This document shows, piece after piece, positions 24,743-33,520 of a DNA stretch of 64,000 nt. Positions within the stretch are counted from its first letter, which is position 1; the number at the start of each line of letters is the position of its first letter. The position numbers were made by a program, and so were the translations under genes. Source of the DNA: Actinomycetota bacterium (GTDB lineage: Bacteria; Actinomycetota; Acidimicrobiia; Acidimicrobiales; MedAcidi-G1); NCBI GenBank assembly GCA_018673475.1, contig JABHCN010000006.1, positions 1-64,000 on the forward strand. The letters run 5' to 3'. A model generated the notes under the pieces. It was not told the DNA's origin. It made no database searches and was given only the letters and a program-made list of their open reading frames with translations.

Positions 24743-25756
24743 TCAGCGACGACGGCCCCGCCTGTCGCCATGCCCCCGACGTTCCCGCTCCTGCTCACGT
24801 CGGCGCTGGTCCTCGAGTTCAGCGCGTAGTGCCCGGTACCGGTCAACCCGTCGGTGGTCCATCTGTCCATCGGCAACCGCTGTGGTGACCGCACAGTCCG
24901 GTTCTGTGTCATGAGCGCAGTCCGAGTACCGACATGCGGAGGAGAGTTCCTCCAGATCACCGAACACACGATCGAGAGCCTCCTCGGAGTCCCAGATCCC
25001 GATCGAGCGGATCCCGGGAGTGTCGACCAGCAGACCACCGCCGGCGAGCCTCACGAGCTCGCGGCTCACCGTCGTATGTCGGCCCCTCGAGTCGACCGAG
25101 CGGACCTCACCGGTCTCCAGGCGTTCTTCGCCGAGGAGAGCGTTGACGAGCGTCGACTTGCCGGAACCGGACTCACCGAGGAGGGCAACGGTCCGGCCCT
25201 CGCCAACCATTGCCAGCACTGGCTCAAGTCCGGTGTCCCCTCCAGCGCCCAGCCCCACAACCAGTACCGGCACCCCCGGAGCGACGGCGCTGATCGTCGC
25301 CGTGACGTCTTCGACAGGAGCACCCCTCTTGTCGGCCTTCGTGAGCACGACAGCCACCTCGGCCCCGCTGTCCCAGGCAACCACGAGGAACCTCTCGAGA
25401 CGACCGGGCGGCAGGGGCCGGTCCAGTCCGTGGACGATCAACACGACGTCCACGTTTGCAACGAGGACCTGCTCGACCACCTGCTCGGAGGGATCTCGCC
25501 GCGACACCGTGTTGGAGCGCGGCAGCACAGAGGAGATCAACAGGCCCAGTTCTGGATCGTCATCGAGAAGAACCCAGTCTCCGGTGGCCGGTGCCGTCAG
25601 ATCCTGGGAGCGTTGAGAGTCCGAGAGAACCCGTACCCGCCCATCAGCCGTGGCCACGTCGCATTCACCCCGATCAACCCTGACAATCCGGCCGAGCCTT
25701 TTGTCGCTGTCAGGGAGGTCGCCGGACCAGCCGTAGGCGGAGAGGTCGATGCTCAT
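24743..25756 (-). CDS. rsgA: Ribosome small-subunit maturation GTPase RsgA
   Basis: A circularly permuted GTPase that releases factors from the 30S subunit, 337 residues. An OB-fold (about residues 20-85) precedes the G domain with the permuted order: G4 in LTKADKRG, then G1 GESGSGKSTLVNALLG, then G3 DTPGIRS. The C-terminal zinc module is present as CRYSDCAHDTEPDC. A long in-frame upstream extension is discarded because ATG 25756 begins at the usual N-terminus. The gene follows the exporter permease by 28 bases and may share its transcript. Confidence 0.93.
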   Translation of the reverse strand: MSIDLSAYGWSGDLPDSDKRLGRIVRVDRGECDVATADGRVRVLSDSQRSQDLTAPATGDWVLLDDDPELGLLISSVLPRSNTVSRRDPSEQVVEQVLVANVDVVLIVHGLDRPLPPGRLERFLVVAWDSGAEVAVVLTKADKRGAPVEDVTATISAVAPGVPVLVVGLGAGGDTGLEPVLAMVGEGRTVALLGESGSGKSTLVNALLGEERLETGEVRSVDSRGRHTTVSRELVRLAGGGLLVDTPGIRSIGIWDSEEALDRVFGDLEELSSACRYSDCAHDTEPDCAVTTAVADGQMDHRRVDRYRALRAELEDQRRREQERERRGHGDRRGRRR

Positions 25757-25784: not shown

Positions 25785-26975
25785 CTAGCCCAGACGAAGG
25801 GTCTCGAGGGGCTCGAGGCGGGCGGCCTTGGTGGATGGGTAGAGGCCCGCCACGACCGCCACGGCAACCGAGAGCATCGCCCATCCGACAAGGCCCACAA
25901 CAGACAACACCATCACGTATCCACGCAGTTCCGCCGTAAGCCAGACCACCCCGGCTCCTGCGGCCGCTCCTAGGATGCCACCCAGAACACCCACGACCAG
26001 GGCTTCCAGCAGGAACTGGACCGCGATCGTGCCTCGGCTGTGGCCGAGCGCCCTCCGGATCCCGATCTCGGTGGACCTCTGGATCACCGAGATGGACATG
26101 ACGTTGGCGATCCCGACACCTCCCACGATCAGCGCCAGGCCTCCCATCATCTTGGTCAGGTTGTTGAGGTTCTCGTCAACCTGGGACTGTGCGTCGAGCA
26201 GGTCGGTGGGAACCGAGGTGTTGGCACCGTCGGGGCCACCGAGGCTGATGACCGTCGGGACCTCCTGGGCCACCAACTTCGTGTTGGTCGGCGCCCGAAT
26301 GTACAACCGGCTGGGGTCGCGGGAATCCAGGCCGAGGTCCTCCTCGGCGTTGGCGAAGGTGAGGAAAACCGCAGAATCCATGGAGGGCTCAAGTAGCACG
26401 TAGTCGAGCACGCCGACCACCCCGTAGTCGATTCCGTTGAGTTGGATGGTCCTTGCCTCTCCGCGCAGATACCCGTACTCGTCAGCCAGGTCGCGGCCGA
26501 TGACCACCACCCTCGCGGCGGTCGACACGTCGAAGTCGTTCAGGAACCGCCCGCTTGCCAGGACCACCTCGAGGGTCTCGGGAAGGTTCAGACCGGTGGC
26601 TATCACTGGCACTGGGAACGCCCGGTAGAAGTCCTCGGCTTCCTCGAAAGGAAGTGTCACGATGTCGGCCATCTGGAGTGTGCCTGTCACCGATTCAACA
26701 TCGGGAAGCCGGGTGACCCGCGCGGCCGCAGCCTCGGGGATACGAGGGTCGCTGCCAAAGCCACCCAGCGAGCCCTGTGCGTTCGCAACAATCAGGTCAG
26801 TTCCCAGGTCCGAGAGGACTGCCTTGAGGTGACCCTTAGAACTCTCGTTGATCCCGATCGCCGACACGATGGCAGCCACACCAAGAATTGGTCCGAGCAT
26901 TATCAGGGCGGTCCGCACCTTGCGGGCACGAAGGCCACCGAGGGCCACCCCGACCAGTTCCCAGATGCGCCTCAT
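25785..26975 (-). CDS. MacB/FtsX-family ABC transporter permease
   Basis: A 396-residue permease with a transmembrane helix at the N-terminus (about residues 20-40), a large extracytoplasmic MacB-core domain (about 50-245), and three C-terminal helices near residues 275-300, 325-350 and 360-385. The conserved RSTEIGIRRALGHSRGTIAVQFL loop is present. Unlike E. coli MacB it is not fused to its ATPase, which is encoded just upstream with a 4-base overlap. It is the last membrane component of the adaptor-ATPase-permease set at 25.8-30.5 kb. Confidence 0.9.
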   Translation of the reverse strand: MRRIWELVGVALGGLRARKVRTALIMLGPILGVAAIVSAIGINESSKGHLKAVLSDLGTDLIVANAQGSLGGFGSDPRIPEAAAARVTRLPDVESVTGTLQMADIVTLPFEEAEDFYRAFPVPVIATGLNLPETLEVVLASGRFLNDFDVSTAARVVVIGRDLADEYGYLRGEARTIQLNGIDYGVVGVLDYVLLEPSMDSAVFLTFANAEEDLGLDSRDPSRLYIRAPTNTKLVAQEVPTVISLGGPDGANTSVPTDLLDAQSQVDENLNNLTKMMGGLALIVGGVGIANVMSISVIQRSTEIGIRRALGHSRGTIAVQFLLEALVVGVLGGILGAAAGAGVVWLTAELRGYVMVLSVVGLVGWAMLSVAVAVVAGLYPSTKAARLEPLETLRLG

Positions 26976-27676
26976 CGGGCTCCCCCCGCAACGTTCAGGA
27001 GTTCATCAGCCACGATTCCACCGTCGAGCATCGTTATCCGGCGCTGTGTCCGGGAGGCCACCCCCAAGTCGTGGGTCACGACACAGATCGCCCGGTCTGA
27101 AGACTGGAGGTCGCCGAAAATGTCCATCACGTTGGAAGCATTTTGGGAGTCAAGTGCACCAGTCGGCTCATCAGCCAGCACCATCAGCGGGTCGGTGACT
27201 ATCGCCCTGGCGATGGCGACACGCTGCTGCTCCCCACCTGAGAGTTGGATCGGCGTGTGCCCGTACCGGTTCCCGAGATCGACCTGTTCGAGGGCGTCCA
27301 TGGCGCCCTGGCGGCGTTCGCCGGCGGACAGGCCACGGTAGAGAAGGGCGGTCTCAACGTTTCCGAGGGCTGTCAGGTGTGGGATCAGGTGGAACTGCTG
27401 GAACACGAAGCCAATGGCTCCACCACGCATCCGGGACCGGTCAGCGTCTCCCAGGTCGGCCATGTCGGTCCCCTGGATCCTCACGGCGCCGCTACTGGGA
27501 AGATCCAAGACTCCTAGGAGGCCAAGGAGCGTCGATTTTCCCGAACCTGACGGTCCGACTATTGAAAGGAAGTCACCTGCCCTGATGTCAAGCGATACAT
27601 CGCGCAACGCGTGGACCTCTACTTCATCCCCAAATACCCGTGAAACGCCATCCAGCGACAGCAGGACCTCGCTCAC
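26972..27676 (-). CDS. MacB/LolD-type ABC transporter ATPase
   Basis: ATPase of the exporter, 234 residues from GTG 27676. Walker [16 protein letters not shown], the Q-loop (VFQQFHLIPHLT), signature [14 protein letters not shown], Walker B LADEPTGALDSQ and a switch His (CVVTHDLG) are all present. The GTG is preferred because AGGGGGGA stands seven bases upstream and the N-terminus then matches LolD/MacB ATPases. In-frame ATG 27697 and TTG 27736 (which overlaps the adaptor gene) are alternatives. These transporters act as mechanotransmission machines rather than classical pumps. Confidence 0.9.
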   Translation of the reverse strand: MSEVLLSLDGVSRVFGDEVEVHALRDVSLDIRAGDFLSIVGPSGSGKSTLLGLLGVLDLPSSGAVRIQGTDMADLGDADRSRMRGGAIGFVFQQFHLIPHLTALGNVETALLYRGLSAGERRQGAMDALEQVDLGNRYGHTPIQLSGGEQQRVAIARAIVTDPLMVLADEPTGALDSQNASNVMDIFGDLQSSDRAICVVTHDLGVASRTQRRITMLDGGIVADELLNVAGGAR

Positions 27677-27722
27677 CTGAGAATCCCCCCTGACCATCTC
27701 GACACCTTCAGAAGACTTGGAG

Positions 27723-30533
27723 TCACGATCGGTCAATCTCGAGGATCACATACTCGCCGACTGACAGCCCTGAGATGATCTCCACATAGGCACCGTCCAG
27801 CATGCCCGTCTGGATGCTCCTGCGTTCGATGACACCAGCCGGCGTCACCACGCGGACCTTCTGGTCTCCGCCATCTGACAGCACCGCAGCTATGGGCACC
27901 ACCACAGCGTCCACAGATTCAGCTACCACAGCATCGATCGTCACCACGGCTCCATCGACACCAACCAGATCGCTATCGGTCTGGACAACCCCTTCGTAGG
28001 TCTCGCTACCGCCTTCACTGGTTGCCGAGTCATCAATTTCGGCGATGAGTCCGCCCACCTCCTGGTCGCCAGCATCCATGTTGACCGTCACTGACTGGCC
28101 GACATCGAGCTTGGCTCGGTTCGAGGGAGTGGCAAACAGCTTTACCGTAAAGTTGGGCTCGGTCAGGGTCAGTAACGGGGTGCCACTCTGGACAAAGTGA
28201 CCCGCTTCGACGTGGACAGAACCAACCCTGGCGGGCCACTGTGCGACGACCATGTCACCTGGCAGGAACACCACGTCGTCGGCAATGGAACGGATCGGAA
28301 TGTCAACAGAACTCTCGCCGGTGCGAAGGATCGTCGTTCCGGTCAGCACCTCGAAGTCCTCCCCTGCTCTGGCACTTCCACCAATCGAGTAGTTGATAGA
28401 GGTGTCCACAGTCGCTGCCTGATCGGCCACAACGGTGACGACTGTCGTTGCACCCTCAGAGACCCAACCTCCCCCCGCGAGGGTCAACTCTGGCAGGTCG
28501 GCTGAGGCCACCCGCACGGTGGCCTCCGATCTGTGGCTGAGTAGGTAGTTGCCACTGGGGTCATCGAGAAGACGAACGGTGATGGTCTCTTCATCTTCAA
28601 CGAGATCATCTGGCCTCAGTTGTACGGTGATTGCCACCGACTCCTGGCCGGCTCGCAAGATGACGTCACCGTCGGGCTGGTTGTAGTCAGATCCAGCCGT
28701 CGCAGATCCGACAGTTTCGTAGAAGATCTCAAGGTCCTCAACCAGCGGATCAGGTGTCTCGACAGTAAATGACGCCAAACCCGACTCAACCACCGTTTCG
28801 CTGTCAGACCTGAGCACCAGGGTTGGCGCATCAGCCACGTCAGGATCGTCGATGATGACCGTTGCTGTGTCCGGGTCGCCGACGAGGTAGCGAGAGCCCT
28901 GCGCAACTCGTAGTTCCTCGCGCTTGGCATCAAGGGAGAACTCCAGCCGTCGTTGTTCATCCAAGAGGTCCTGCACCACTGTGTCTGTTGAGGCCTGGGC
29001 CTCGGCAAGGTCGGCCTCGGCTACCTCGAGAAGGAAGCTGAGCCGATCGTCCTCGCGCTCCAGGGAGGCAAGGGCATTTCCAGCTGTGTCAACAGTGTCT
29101 CTGGCCGTCGTCAACTCCGTCGATTCCTCAAGGGCAGCCGAAAGCGCGTCGTAGTAGGCGTCAAATGCCTGGGTACGGGCAGCAACGGTGATGTTCTCAG
29201 CCTCCAGATCCGCATTGGCGTCGTCGAGGGCCTCGTCGAGCGAGATCAGGTTGGCAGCCTCAGCCGGTGTCACGTCCGAAGTTACAGTCTGGACCAGAGT
29301 GATGATGCCCTTGTCCATCAGTTCCTGTTCCACGTCGGTCTTTTCCTGTTGACGTGATTCAAGACCGCTCACCTCGGCCTCCGCATCGGTGAGGTCCTGC
29401 TGTGCCTCTGCCACATCGCTGACCAACTCGGCACGACGCTCGACCAGATCGTCGATCTCAGTCTGCAGGTCGAAGACAACGAGATCCTCGGGAGCCGTTT
29501 CCGAGGTGACGATCTCGTCCACCAGTTCGGCCTGTCGCTCCAGTAGGGCGTCAAGGGCCTCCTGAATGTCAAACACCAAGAGGTCCTGTGAAGCAAGGTT
29601 GGCGGCCTCGTCAAAGCTGCTTGAGACAGTTACCTCCAGGTCCTCGTTTGCCTCACGTAGGTCATCGACCTGGGTTGTCACCACAAGGTTGGCTGTTGCA
29701 GACCCTGCGGCTATCACGACCGTGTCGTCTATGCCCTCGTAGTCGTCGGAAGTCACGTCACCGCCAATGCGGACAGCTACCACGAGGTCGCTGGCTGGTA
29801 TGGGATCAGCTGTAACGGTAAACACCACCTGGTCGCCCTCGGTGACGATCGCTTCGACCACTCGCACCGTCACAACAGGTGCTCCGGTGATGTCCTCGGC
29901 CGTGTTCCTCCTCGCCTTCCCAACTGAACGGGATGCACCGCCGATCTGTACCGACACGGTGTTCACCGCTCCGACCGAGTAGCCAGCTGGGTTTGCCTGC
30001 AGGGACACCGTCACCACCTCGTCTACCTCGGTGGCAGTACTCCCGTAGTCGTGATCGGATTGCCACTCGGCGAGACCGCTCCGAGTTTCCTCCGTGTAGT
30101 ACCGGTCCACCACTCCAACCGAGTAGCCAGCAGCGGAGAGGACCTTCTCCAGTTGCAAGACGTCAGGGCCGTCTGACCCCACGTCAAGTGGCCTATAGAA
30201 CTCCAGGTCACCGCCCACGGCCACCGCCCTTCGCCCATCGAGGCTGAACAGGACGTCTCCCACCTGAACGGTGTCACCGTCTGCGACTTCCAGGCCGGTG
30301 ATGCGGCCAGATGCCGCCGAGTTGATCGTCTGGAGTTCATCGCGGCGCAACTCGCCGCGGACTGTCAATTCCTCTGTGAGGGTGCGGGTGGTAACGGCCT
30401 CGGCTATGGCCCTGTCCCGCAAGGGATCAACAGCTGTACCGCTGTCATCCCATGGCTTCCACACGGTCAGGCCAGCCACTACCGCAGCAGCCACCACCAG
30501 TGCGAAGATTCGCACAACCAACCCGGCCTTCAT
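27723..30533 (-). CDS. Giant MacA/HlyD-like adaptor with inserted Calx-beta domains and PG-binding motif
   Basis: A 936-residue membrane-anchored adaptor, more than twice MacA length. In order: N-terminal membrane span (6-24); first half of the lipoyl-like domain (about 70-100); a peptidoglycan_binding_1-like segment (120-162, VLQLEKVLSAAGYSVGVVD...GLAEWQ); a Calx-beta domain (about 218-305); coiled coil (about 320-400 and 430-548); two more Calx-beta domains (about 570-675 and 680-750); the second lipoyl half (758-792, ARVGSVHVEAGHFVQSGTPL); a beta barrel (795-880); and the membrane-proximal domain. An internal repeat of about 32 residues appears at 318 and 350 (LLVFDIQEALDALLERQAEL and VVFDLQTEIDDLVERRAEL). 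The order implies that the hairpin arm is extended by Calx-beta modules. It lies in an operon with the MacB ATPase and permease and two upstream lipoproteins. Confidence 0.85.
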   Translation of the reverse strand: MKAGLVVRIFALVVAAAVVAGLTVWKPWDDSGTAVDPLRDRAIAEAVTTRTLTEELTVRGELRRDELQTINSAASGRITGLEVADGDTVQVGDVLFSLDGRRAVAVGGDLEFYRPLDVGSDGPDVLQLEKVLSAAGYSVGVVDRYYTEETRSGLAEWQSDHDYGSTATEVDEVVTVSLQANPAGYSVGAVNTVSVQIGGASRSVGKARRNTAEDITGAPVVTVRVVEAIVTEGDQVVFTVTADPIPASDLVVAVRIGGDVTSDDYEGIDDTVVIAAGSATANLVVTTQVDDLREANEDLEVTVSSSFDEAANLASQDLLVFDIQEALDALLERQAELVDEIVTSETAPEDLVVFDLQTEIDDLVERRAELVSDVAEAQQDLTDAEAEVSGLESRQQEKTDVEQELMDKGIITLVQTVTSDVTPAEAANLISLDEALDDANADLEAENITVAARTQAFDAYYDALSAALEESTELTTARDTVDTAGNALASLEREDDRLSFLLEVAEADLAEAQASTDTVVQDLLDEQRRLEFSLDAKREELRVAQGSRYLVGDPDTATVIIDDPDVADAPTLVLRSDSETVVESGLASFTVETPDPLVEDLEIFYETVGSATAGSDYNQPDGDVILRAGQESVAITVQLRPDDLVEDEETITVRLLDDPSGNYLLSHRSEATVRVASADLPELTLAGGGWVSEGATTVVTVVADQAATVDTSINYSIGGSARAGEDFEVLTGTTILRTGESSVDIPIRSIADDVVFLPGDMVVAQWPARVGSVHVEAGHFVQSGTPLLTLTEPNFTVKLFATPSNRAKLDVGQSVTVNMDAGDQEVGGLIAEIDDSATSEGGSETYEGVVQTDSDLVGVDGAVVTIDAVVAESVDAVVVPIAAVLSDGGDQKVRVVTPAGVIERRSIQTGMLDGAYVEIISGLSVGEYVILEIDRS

Positions 30534-30578
30534 GGTCGCCTCCCTAAAGGTTTCATAGTCACTACTGAACGGATCAAA

Positions 30579-31352
30579 TCAGCCTCCACTGCCACGACCC
30601 TGACCAGCTCCAGGTGGAGGGCCACCGCCGAAGCCGCCATCGCCAAAGAGGTTGGCTGCACTAGCGCATTGATCAATGTCGGTACGGTTGATCTCCTCGG
30701 CAGCATCACGAAACAGTGAGCGTGGACTGAGGGCACCCGTCTCGTCGGGCATGGGGTCATCAATCTCCCACCCCTTGTCCCGCAGGCAGGTTACGACTGC
30801 GAGCAATTGCTCATTGTTCTCACGGACCTGTTCAGGTGAGCGCTCTTCTCTAGATGCCCGGAACTCCTCCACAACATCAGCAATTCCACTCTCCGCGTTG
30901 CAACGCTGAATGGCCTCGATATATCCAGCCTGGTTGACGGGGTCGTCATCATCAGAATCCCCACCGGGTGGACCCCGGAACGTGAAGCCCTCGGCCGACA
31001 GGCAGTCGTTGAATACCTGAATGGTGCTCTGGAACTCCTCACGCGGATCCTCCTCCGCAAGCGGGATCGTGTCCTTGGTCGGCTCGGTCGTGCTGGGGGT
31101 CTCCGACGGCGCTGGCGAGGTTGTCGTCGAGGGGGAGGTCTGTGGGGACGGTGCCAACGAGGTGGCTGGCGGCACTGTCGTTGTCTCGACCACGTTGAGG
31201 AAGGCACCTGCCGGAACTATCAACTCGGGTGCCTCGTCGGCGGTCAGGACGATGATCGACCTGGTCTGATCGGACTCCGATGCCCCGCATGCGGTGGCAA
31301 CCAACCCCACCAGCACCACGAGCGTCACAGACAGCGGCTTTCTGCGTCTCAC
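30579..31352 (-). CDS. Lipoprotein B of the exporter operon
   Basis: A 257-residue lipoprotein. The GTG start has GGAG five bases upstream. The signal ends in the lipobox VATAC near residue 22. A Ser/Thr/Pro-rich linker (about 55-95) leads to a domain with spaced Cys in FNDCLSAEGFTF, IQRCN, VTCLRDKGWEI and DQCAS. The C-terminus is Gly-rich (GGFGGGPPPGAGQGRGSGG). The CLRxKGWEI..MPDE block recalls the KCMRxNGVxMPDP block of short actinobacterial lipoproteins that sit beside MacAB-like operons. It is clearly paralogous to the next gene upstream. It begins the intergenic run into the adaptor gene after 45 bases. Confidence 0.8.
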   Translation of the reverse strand: MRRRKPLSVTLVVLVGLVATACGASESDQTRSIIVLTADEAPELIVPAGAFLNVVETTTVPPATSLAPSPQTSPSTTTSPAPSETPSTTEPTKDTIPLAEEDPREEFQSTIQVFNDCLSAEGFTFRGPPGGDSDDDDPVNQAGYIEAIQRCNAESGIADVVEEFRASREERSPEQVRENNEQLLAVVTCLRDKGWEIDDPMPDETGALSPRSLFRDAAEEINRTDIDQCASAANLFGDGGFGGGPPPGAGQGRGSGG

Positions 31353-31454
31353 CTTGACTCCGTTCCGCGTGCTCCTCTGAACACGTCACCGCATCATCCC
31401 AGCGCCATGTTACGAAGCTGTTAGGGATCGCCTCTGGTCGGCCAGATGCCGCCA

Positions 31455-32195
31455 TCAACCCTCCTCAGCTGCATCTCTCTCGAGCGCAATTTCGCCGGCA
31501 CAATCCCTGACCTGGTTGGTGTCGAAATCGTCGTCGGCGCTGGCCATACCACCCGCTGGGCCTAGAAGTCCGTTCTCGTCTGGGGTCAACTCTGGGATCT
31601 CCCAACCCTTTCGGCGCAGACAGTCGGTCAAATCTATGAAATCCTCGTTCTGTTGTTCGATCTCGTCTGGATCCAAGCCCGTCCTCGAGGCCTGGAACTC
31701 CTGAAAGACCGTCGAGATCCCAGTCCGGCTGTTACACGTCGTCAGAGCACGGAAGTAGTCCATGTTATTTTCAGGGGCATTGGCGCCGGACTCAGGGTTC
31801 GGCGGACCGATCCATTCGTAGCCCTCCCCACTGAGGCACGAGTTGAACCTGTCCAGGGCATCAAGCAGTTTCACTCCAGGAGTGTCCTCCTCCTCAGCAA
31901 GCGGGATGGTGGTCCGTGTTACTTCGGTGGTGGTTGTCTGCTCCGGTGAGCGTGTTGTTGTGGATGAAGTGACGGACGCCGGAGGAGGCGTCGTCGAGGG
32001 CTCGGGAACCGTGGTGGTTGTCACCTCGACCACGTTTTCGAATGCGTCGGCAGGAACCACTATCTCGGTAGCGGATTCCGGGCTGAGCACGACGATCGAC
32101 CTGCTGGCGCCCTCGACATCGCTGCCGGAACACGACGCCAGCCAGACCATGAGCAACGGTGCAACAACCGCAACCAGACGCTTTGACAACAACAT
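31455..32195 (-). CDS. Lipoprotein A of the exporter operon, paralogue of lipoprotein B
   Basis: A 246-residue lipoprotein with signal MLLSKRLVAVVAPLLMVWLASC. It shares with its neighbour the block RSIVVLSPESATEIVVPADAF, a Thr/Pro linker, the TTIPLAEEE motif, FNSCLSGEGYEW, an ALTTCN segment, and DCLRRKGWEIPELTPDE. The N-terminal Cys is the acylation site. Start uncertain by one to two codons: a GGAGG sits directly before ATG 32195, so TTG 32192 or 32189 would have better spacing. First gene of the exporter operon as far as can be seen. Divergent from gpgS. Confidence 0.8.
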   Translation of the reverse strand: MLLSKRLVAVVAPLLMVWLASCSGSDVEGASRSIVVLSPESATEIVVPADAFENVVEVTTTTVPEPSTTPPPASVTSSTTTRSPEQTTTTEVTRTTIPLAEEEDTPGVKLLDALDRFNSCLSGEGYEWIGPPNPESGANAPENNMDYFRALTTCNSRTGISTVFQEFQASRTGLDPDEIEQQNEDFIDLTDCLRRKGWEIPELTPDENGLLGPAGGMASADDDFDTNQVRDCAGEIALERDAAEEG

Positions 32196-32302: not shown

Positions 32303-33520
32303 ATGGCCGACTTCTCCCAGAGCGGAACAATTGCCACACTCCACCACCTGGGCGAGAGGCCCCTCGAGTCACTTGAGGCTGAGCTTGCCTCATGGGGAAG
32401 CGACCGGCCGATGTCGCTGATAATCCCCTGCCTCGCCACTGAGATGAACGGTCCTGCGCTGCGTGGCATCATCAGTGAACTGTCGTCGGTTCCGTACCTG
32501 AGTGAGGTGATCGTCGGCCTGGACCACGCAAACCTGGACGACTTCACCAGAGCCCGGGAACTGTTCGCTCCCCTGCCGCAGCACCACCGGATCGTGTGGA
32601 ACGACAGCCCCCGCCTGCGCTCTATCGAGACAGGCCTGAGAGACCACGGCCTTGCACCGACAGAGACCGGCAAGGGGCGCAACGTGTGGTGGTGCCTCGG
32701 CTACTTCCTGGCATCGGGGCGGGCGCGGTCGGTCGCCCTCCACGATGCCGACATCCTCACCTACGACCGGTCGATGGTTGCGAGGCTCCACTACCCGGTC
32801 GCCCACCCCAGCTTCGGATACGTGTTCGCCAAGGGCTTCTACTACCGGGCTGCGTCAGACGGTGGTCGTCTCAACGGCCGCGTCACCCGGTTGTTCGTTG
32901 CGCCACTTCTTCGGGCCCTGTCGCTGACCTTTGGGCGTAGCGACTACCTGGACTTCATCGGGAGCTTCCGGTATCCGCTGGCCGGCGAGTGTGCGATGGA
33001 TGAGAGTGCGGCCCGGTCAATCCGCATTCCTTCGGACTGGGGCCTCGAGATCGGGGTTCTGGGCGAGGTCTTCCACCGCCACTCCGGCGCAAGGGTCTGC
33101 CAGGTCGATGTTGCTGACATCTACGACCACAAGCATCAGGAACTCTCACCCGATGATGCCTCGACGGGCCTGCACAGGATGAGCGTCGATATCGCCAGGG
33201 CCATGTTCAAGAAGTTGGCTTCTTCGGGGGTCGTGTTGACGTCGGAGGGCTTTCGCACGCTTGAGGCGGCATTCTTCCGGTCCGCCCTCGACCTGATCGA
33301 CAGCTACAACGCCGACGCTGTCCTGAACGGCATTCCCTATGACCGCCAGGAGGAGGAGGCGACGGCAGACGTGTTCGCCCATGCGATCCTCAGGGCGGGC
33401 GACGACTACCTGAATGACCCCATGGAGTCGCCCTTCATTCCGAGCTGGTCACGGGTCGACTCGGAGATGCCCGACCTGGCCGAGAACCTGGCCAAGGCGG
33501 TCGAGGCTGACAACGCCTGA
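32303..33520 (+). CDS. gpgS: Glucosyl-3-phosphoglycerate synthase-like GT81 glycosyltransferase
   Basis: A 405-residue GT-A-fold retaining transferase. The N-terminal substrate-binding block (MSLIIPCLATEMNGPALRGII) is followed by a DxD-equivalent metal motif in LHDADILTYDR, then GSFRYPLAGECAM, and DWGLEIGVLGE near residue 245. This pattern matches enzymes that make glucosyl- or mannosyl-3-phosphoglycerate, the first step of glucosylglycerate and of methylglucose polysaccharide synthesis. It follows the lipoprotein A gene divergently with about 107 bases between them. The sugar donor cannot be decided here. Confidence 0.83.
   Translation: MADFSQSGTIATLHHLGERPLESLEAELASWGSDRPMSLIIPCLATEMNGPALRGIISELSSVPYLSEVIVGLDHANLDDFTRARELFAPLPQHHRIVWNDSPRLRSIETGLRDHGLAPTETGKGRNVWWCLGYFLASGRARSVALHDADILTYDRSMVARLHYPVAHPSFGYVFAKGFYYRAASDGGRLNGRVTRLFVAPLLRALSLTFGRSDYLDFIGSFRYPLAGECAMDESAARSIRIPSDWGLEIGVLGEVFHRHSGARVCQVDVADIYDHKHQELSPDDASTGLHRMSVDIARAMFKKLASSGVVLTSEGFRTLEAAFFRSALDLIDSYNADAVLNGIPYDRQEEEATADVFAHAILRAGDDYLNDPMESPFIPSWSRVDSEMPDLAENLAKAVEADNA

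Follow-up and report, generated by a model that had tools for sequence, protein, structure and literature searches.

We propose that a run of five genes in a marine actinobacterial genome encodes a four-part, wall-anchored ATP-binding cassette (ABC) machine of the MacAB-like (type VII, mechanotransmission) kind, in which a lipoprotein is the fourth subunit; we hold this reading with moderate confidence. The run fills positions 25785-32195 of a 64,000-nucleotide stretch (the window), part of a 94.5 kb contig from a 2.04 Mb, 94.6% complete genome of the MedAcidi-G1 family of the Acidimicrobiales. Its genes lie on the minus strand, as do all features below unless stated otherwise, and encode lipoproteins A and B, an adaptor, an ATPase and a permease, separated by 102, 45 and 25 nucleotides, with a four-nucleotide overlap (ATGA) between ATPase and permease. 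A first reading made from the DNA alone (the sequence-only reading) had described this five-gene module, and our analysis upholds it. To that description we add that the two lipoproteins are paralogues and that the adaptor carries peptidoglycan-binding and Calx-beta domains as well as a helical insert.

Why do we place the lipoprotein inside the machine? The strongest argument that it works with the adaptor comes from proteins in which the two are joined. Lipoprotein-adaptor fusions occur in seven genomes, six from one family (G141, G171, G196, G220, G242 and G261) and one from another (G215). Each fusion protein, 568-649 residues long, combines a lipobox, both Cys units of the lipoprotein domain and a linker with an adaptor of lipoyl, peptidoglycan-binding and barrel parts, and the ATPase gene comes next. 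The fusions match the lipoprotein profile (lip4) at E values of 5e-15 to 7e-18, and in them the lipid anchor replaces the adaptor's usual membrane helix. The fusions from both families may have a single origin.

The same partnership appears when the adaptor is taken as the starting point. We read 40 adaptor loci (L152-L191) and another 20 (L227-L246), drawn from the adaptor profile matches by adaptor score, and in most of them the gene directly upstream encodes a secreted or lipobox protein whose domain has four cysteines (Cys4). In the counted set of 42 loci, in which an ATPase follows the adaptor, enough upstream sequence is available and profile-building loci are left out, a Cys4 lipoprotein lies directly upstream in 30 and is fused to the adaptor in 7, the latter count not being a frequency because fusion loci were selected once the fusion was known from an early pair. 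The lipoprotein models match 47 of the 2689 open reading frames (ORFs) across these adaptor loci, and a lipobox-like stretch with two Cys units is present in 51 of 74 adaptor-adjacent ORFs, compared with 9 of 404 other ORFs taken as the control. A looser motif count was dropped in favor of the profile-based counts, since 36 of the 404 control ORFs match the loose motif twice.

Gene order in related genomes points the same way. Complete MedAcidi-G1 loci show a divergent glycosyltransferase gene (in most loci), one or two lipoproteins, adaptor, ATPase, permease and, where the contig reaches that far, RsgA; every one of them has at least one lipoprotein. Across five such loci the permease is the most conserved protein (79-94% identity) and the lipoproteins are the least (33-71%). 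In genus g2 of the family, two genomes have neither lipoprotein nor adaptor, and two others hold a complete cassette of another type (L113, L114). The Cys4-domain profile detects a window-type lipoprotein at E<1e-20 in 28 of 248 genomes from this order, and the matching adaptor type is found in the same 28 genomes (three times as pieces at contig ends); the adaptor profile was built partly from these families, so that the score gap, but not the adjacency, is partly by construction. About ten other families keep the order of lipoprotein, adaptor, ATPase and permease with different outer flanks, and in one locus (L108) other ORFs intervene. Lipoproteins that are not conserved with the exporter, the finding that the sequence-only reading had named as fatal to its module, were thus not encountered. 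Taken together, co-inheritance and fusion make a working partnership between lipoprotein and adaptor well supported.

The association extends across the phylum. A profile of a short type of Cys4 lipoprotein matches 28 of 296 genomes sampled across the phylum, mostly directly before an adaptor. In plasmid records from Streptomyces and Actinomyces oris, all nine annotated regions that were read consist of a hypothetical protein, a peptidoglycan-binding protein, an ABC ATPase and an ABC permease, adjoined by a response regulator and a histidine kinase (or an ATP-binding protein in its stead). The hypothetical protein has four cysteines in all nine, and in eight the lipobox Cys lies inside the annotated start. 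These actinomycete operons (for example, NZ_CP030074.1, NZ_CP107961.1 and NZ_CP116225.1) share with the window the four genes, their order, the four-Cys lipoprotein and the PG_binding adaptor; they differ in their adaptors of about 345-420 residues and in the adjacent two-component system. The sequence-only reading likened the Cys pattern to that of short actinobacterial lipoproteins beside MacAB-like operons, and the association proves stronger than it claimed. Our literature search returned no description of actinomycete operons of this kind.

Lipoproteins A (31455-32195; 246 residues) and B (30579-31352; 257 residues) are 36% identical (E 2e-38). In each, a lipobox, a conserved short stretch (RSIVVLS...EIVVPA.AF) and a Thr/Ser/Pro linker that varies in length precede the C-terminal Cys4 domain (nucleotides 31479-31913 in A and 30648-31073 in B), and B has a tail rich in Gly and Pro. 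The only cysteines are the lipobox Cys22 and residues 120, 154, 192 and 232 in A, and Cys22 and residues 117, 151, 189 and 229 in B. Across 26 homologues the domain cysteines C120, C154, C192 and C232 (A numbering) are invariant, and F117, L121, G125, G130, P132, N143, Y147, R171, P176, N183, L193, G197 and W198, among others, are also conserved. The domain is made of two alike units, C-L-x(3)-G-aromatic...C (family pattern C-x(3,5)-G...C, twice), and its cysteines likely form disulfides within it. Neither the window pair nor the short type matches a Pfam family, apart from three single weak chance matches among the 26 members; no NCBIfam family reaches its threshold; and a PDB sequence search with the lipoprotein profiles gave chance-level matches only (E 0.31 or worse). 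We rejected an NCBIfam match to a thioredoxin-like selenolipoprotein family, whose 14-15 bits (E 0.01-0.03) fell short of the 190-bit cut-off, and we do not treat the weak EF-hand and lanmodulin matches in the PDB (E about 0.4) as a sign that the lipoproteins bind calcium.

Three types of Cys4 lipoprotein are found upstream of adaptors: the short type (CMRDHGVDMPDP...C twice, about 190-260 residues), a large type (about 350-460 residues) and the window type. Short and window types are related by profile comparison (hhalign probability 94.4), and the window pair shows the marks of the family, namely a lipobox Cys, two C-x(3,5)-G...C units and a gene position directly before a PG_binding_1 adaptor. 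In the tree, lipoprotein A is kept throughout the family and the second slot is held by two distinct paralogue lineages; in the window's genus, lipoprotein B clusters with paralogues that stand alone in another genus (g5; L110:7111-7701, L111:7203-8120 and L112:6947-7948), which have no adjoining adaptor. In another family a tandem pair of large-type Cys4 lipoproteins precedes the adaptor (L152:3921-6409); the pairing of lipoproteins has therefore probably evolved at least twice.

The adaptor (27723-30533; 936 residues) begins with a transmembrane helix (residues 6-24), followed by the first lipoyl half (residues 68-99, 30237-30332; Biotin_lipoyl_2, 3.2e-10), a PG_binding_1 domain (residues 122-162, 30048-30170; E 8.3e-6, 26.3 bits against a cut-off of 23), Calx-beta domains, the second lipoyl half with the barrel (HlyD_3, residues 762-853, 27975-28250) and an RND_mfp C-terminus. 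The RND_mfp match extends to residue 931 (E 1.2e-22) and at 80.3 bits is below its cut-off of 94.9, whereas Biotin_lipoyl_2 and HlyD_3 exceed theirs. With its split lipoyl domain, barrel and membrane-proximal domain, the protein is built as a MacA/HlyD adaptor. MacA-type adaptors carry an alpha-hairpin between the lipoyl halves. The window adaptor lacks such a hairpin directly between the halves, and PG_binding_1 and Calx-beta domains occupy its place. PG_binding_1 is conserved across the aligned adaptors, and in minimal adaptors of 346-350 residues from two other families it stands alone between the lipoyl halves. We therefore regard the wall-binding domain as the core and the Calx-beta domains, of which nine other adaptors show from none to four detected stretches, as additions.

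Calx-beta (4.4e-14) is detected in three stretches of the window adaptor. The N-terminal part of the first spans residues 220-306 or so (29616-29876; extent partly by eye), and its closing strand seems to lie at about residues 549-567, after a Pro/Gly-poor helical insert (about residues 316-548, 28890-29588, in a low-Pro/Gly segment at 278-553). The second and third (28284-28823) cover residues 571-675, the best stretch, and about 680-750, with limits drawn by eye. The helical stretch, some 230-270 residues long, thus appears inside a Calx-beta domain, and to judge from the sequence it may form a hairpin. Most of the other MedAcidi-G1 adaptors examined, and none from the other families examined, have similar helical stretches (about 118-370 residues by a crude measure). 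At four loci, in addition to the adaptor that precedes the ATPase, a second short PG_binding adaptor follows the permease (L167:5289-6344, L171:9751-10902, L178:4985-6157 and L239:8116-9327). A literature search found no papers on Calx-beta membrane-fusion proteins, on actinobacterial peptidoglycan-binding MacAB adaptors or on the Cys4 lipoprotein.

The ATPase (26972-27697; 241 residues, with a possible longer start at TTG 27736) matches ABC_tran at 1.8e-32, and its Walker A, Q-loop, LSGGE, Walker B and H-loop motifs are all intact. It scores 213.5 bits (4.5e-63) with MacB and 212.5 bits (5.1e-63) with LolD. The permease (25785-26975; 396 residues) has transmembrane helices at residues 24-42, 280-298, 317-335 and 350-372, a MacB_PCD ectodomain (2.5e-22, 80.6 bits) between the first two and an FtsX C-terminal part (3.6e-18, 66.2 bits) with the last three. 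Ectodomain, FtsX part and four helices, together with an intact nucleotide-binding domain of the MacB/LolD/FtsE group, are the marks of a MacB-type (type VII) ABC transporter. Against NCBIfam the permease matches ADOP/MacB families (1.1e-29 and 1.8e-24), the LolCE family TIGR02212 being far below cut-off (1.9e-6), and the solved structures that it matches best are those of MacB and of the pneumococcal MacAB-like permease. The sequence-only reading held that such an exporter would have no TolC to dock with, and we agree: the TolC/OEP family (PF02321) has no match in the window's own genome, and 7 of 14 control genomes give matches.

How would these parts work together? We propose that the ATPase and permease would move the permease ectodomain through a conformational stroke, while the adaptor's N-terminal helix would fix it in the membrane with its barrel seated on the permease. 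Ending in a peptidoglycan-binding domain and Calx-beta spacers, and having no TolC-docking hairpin, the adaptor would open into the wall or anchor on it. The lipid-anchored Cys4 lipoprotein, present as two paralogues at the window locus, would be a fixed subunit bound to the adaptor. Its most likely task would be to take up an envelope-active peptide or amphiphile on the outer side of the membrane, or to control how such a compound enters the pump, which would then push it out through the wall. Clearance of such compounds from the membrane face into the wall is the role that we infer as most likely from this anatomy, from the two-component neighbors of the relatives and from known peptide-protecting pumps.

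For example, YknXYZ protects against SDP and Spr0693-0695 against LL-37; purified YknX binds peptidoglycan, and the model of the pneumococcal pump ends at the wall (PMC5985334, PMC5768738). The window pump shares with MacAB-TolC of E. coli and Spr0693-0694-0695 of S. pneumoniae the four-helix MacB_PCD/FtsX permease, the MacB-type ATPase and the HlyD-type adaptor with an N-terminal transmembrane helix, and it shares with the pneumococcal pump the lack of TolC. It differs from both in having PG_binding_1 and Calx-beta domains at the position of the hairpin and a fixed Cys4 lipoprotein. Similarly, YknWXYZ of Bacillus is a MacAB-like system that works in a cell with one membrane and has an additional, fourth part, and its purified YknX is reported to bind peptidoglycan (PMC5985334). 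However, YknW is an integral membrane protein, and in that role the window has a lipobox protein that matches nothing in Pfam; moreover, unlike in YknX, wall binding in the window adaptor is assigned to a dedicated PG_binding_1 domain. Immunity to nisin relies on cooperation between a lipoprotein and an ABC transporter (PMC4828448). The likeness to LanI and LanFEG (NisI/NisFEG), which also combine a lipoprotein with an ABC transporter and have a two-component system in the gene cluster, is one of working principle only and unproven for the window, whose lipoproteins match no known family. LanFEG transporters are of the ABC-2 type and have no adaptor.

Could the lipoproteins instead be cargo? 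The sequence-only reading suggested that the exporter delivers or remodels them, and a LolCDE-like or other delivery device might indeed extract them from the membrane and place them in or beyond the wall. LolCDE belongs to the MacB-type superfamily and acts on lipoproteins; the window permease shares a broad superfamily with LolCE, as the weak TIGR02212 match indicates; the ATPase is as near LolD as MacB; and the long Thr/Ser/Pro linkers suit wall crossing. Yet the permease scores higher with ADOP/MacB than with LolCE, no TolC was detected and hence no sign of an outer membrane as destination, and relatives in seven genomes carry the lipoprotein domain on the N-terminus of the adaptor. Because of these fusions we rank lipoprotein delivery low, as improbable, and set that part of the sequence-only reading aside; the lipoprotein is best read as a subunit. 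Its other suggestion, that the exporter acts on the wall, is plausible only insofar as a wall-binding domain is part of the adaptor. A wall-coupled device resembling FtsEX or Bce systems might pull on adaptor and wall, or signal to a two-component system, without transport. The peptidoglycan-binding domain and the FtsX-type C-terminus of the permease fit such a device, as do the two-component systems next to the operon in all nine annotated actinomycete records that were read, but the unit has no wall hydrolase gene, the adaptor retains the lipoyl and barrel parts of transport adaptors, and two-component genes were not seen beside the window copy; we consider it unlikely. Export of a self-made product (a siderophore, peptide or surface polymer) rather than toxin clearance is quite improbable in our estimate: siderophores, signals and virulence factors are indeed among the exports of MacB-type pumps (PMC5985334), but biosynthetic genes are not kept beside the unit and its outer flanks vary between families.

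Several observations weigh against the four-part machine as we propose it. By profile, 5 of the 42 counted adaptor loci have neither an upstream nor a fused lipoprotein, although three of the five (L176, L244 and L245) have an upstream ORF bearing two Cys-Gly units and in a fourth (L234) the opposite strand gives a match. The stand-alone paralogues of genus g5 suggest that the Cys4 domain may also work alone. Finally, neither two-component genes nor a biosynthetic cluster was seen next to the genes in the window, and the case for peptide clearance is therefore borrowed from relatives.

Outside the run, an RsgA-like GTPase gene (24743-25756) begins 28 nucleotides downstream of the permease; RsgA takes this place in every MedAcidi-G1 locus long enough to show it, was not found there in other families and is probably a neighbor outside the machine. 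On the plus strand, 107 nucleotides upstream of lipoprotein A, a divergent gene (32303-33520), kept in most MedAcidi-G1 loci, resembles glycosyltransferases of the glucosyl-3-phosphoglycerate-synthase type, a likeness assigned by eye. A promoter scan of the locus found no promoter-like site, and terminator-like sites were fewer than in shuffled sequences. The same genome has a second MacB-type locus on a short contig (G000:C30:255-2432, L120), a single ORF of at least 892 residues with two MacB_PCD matches and no partner genes in view.

More broadly, we tentatively suggest that the window pump belongs to an undescribed, Actinomycetota-wide class of four-part ABC machines with an obligatory, disulfide-stabilized Cys4 subunit for substrate capture or entry gating and an adaptor whose peptidoglycan-binding tip opens the channel into the wall, here with calcium-stiffened Calx-beta spacers. 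A wall-binding domain at the place of the docking hairpin suggests how MacA-type adaptors work without an outer membrane, and the four-part class, if real, would explain what job such adaptors have in these cells. Within the family libraries and literature searched, the Cys4 lipoprotein appears to be an overlooked component of a widespread envelope machine. Its co-inheritance and fusion with the adaptor provide a testable handle, in culturable Streptomyces, on how the machine chooses its substrate.

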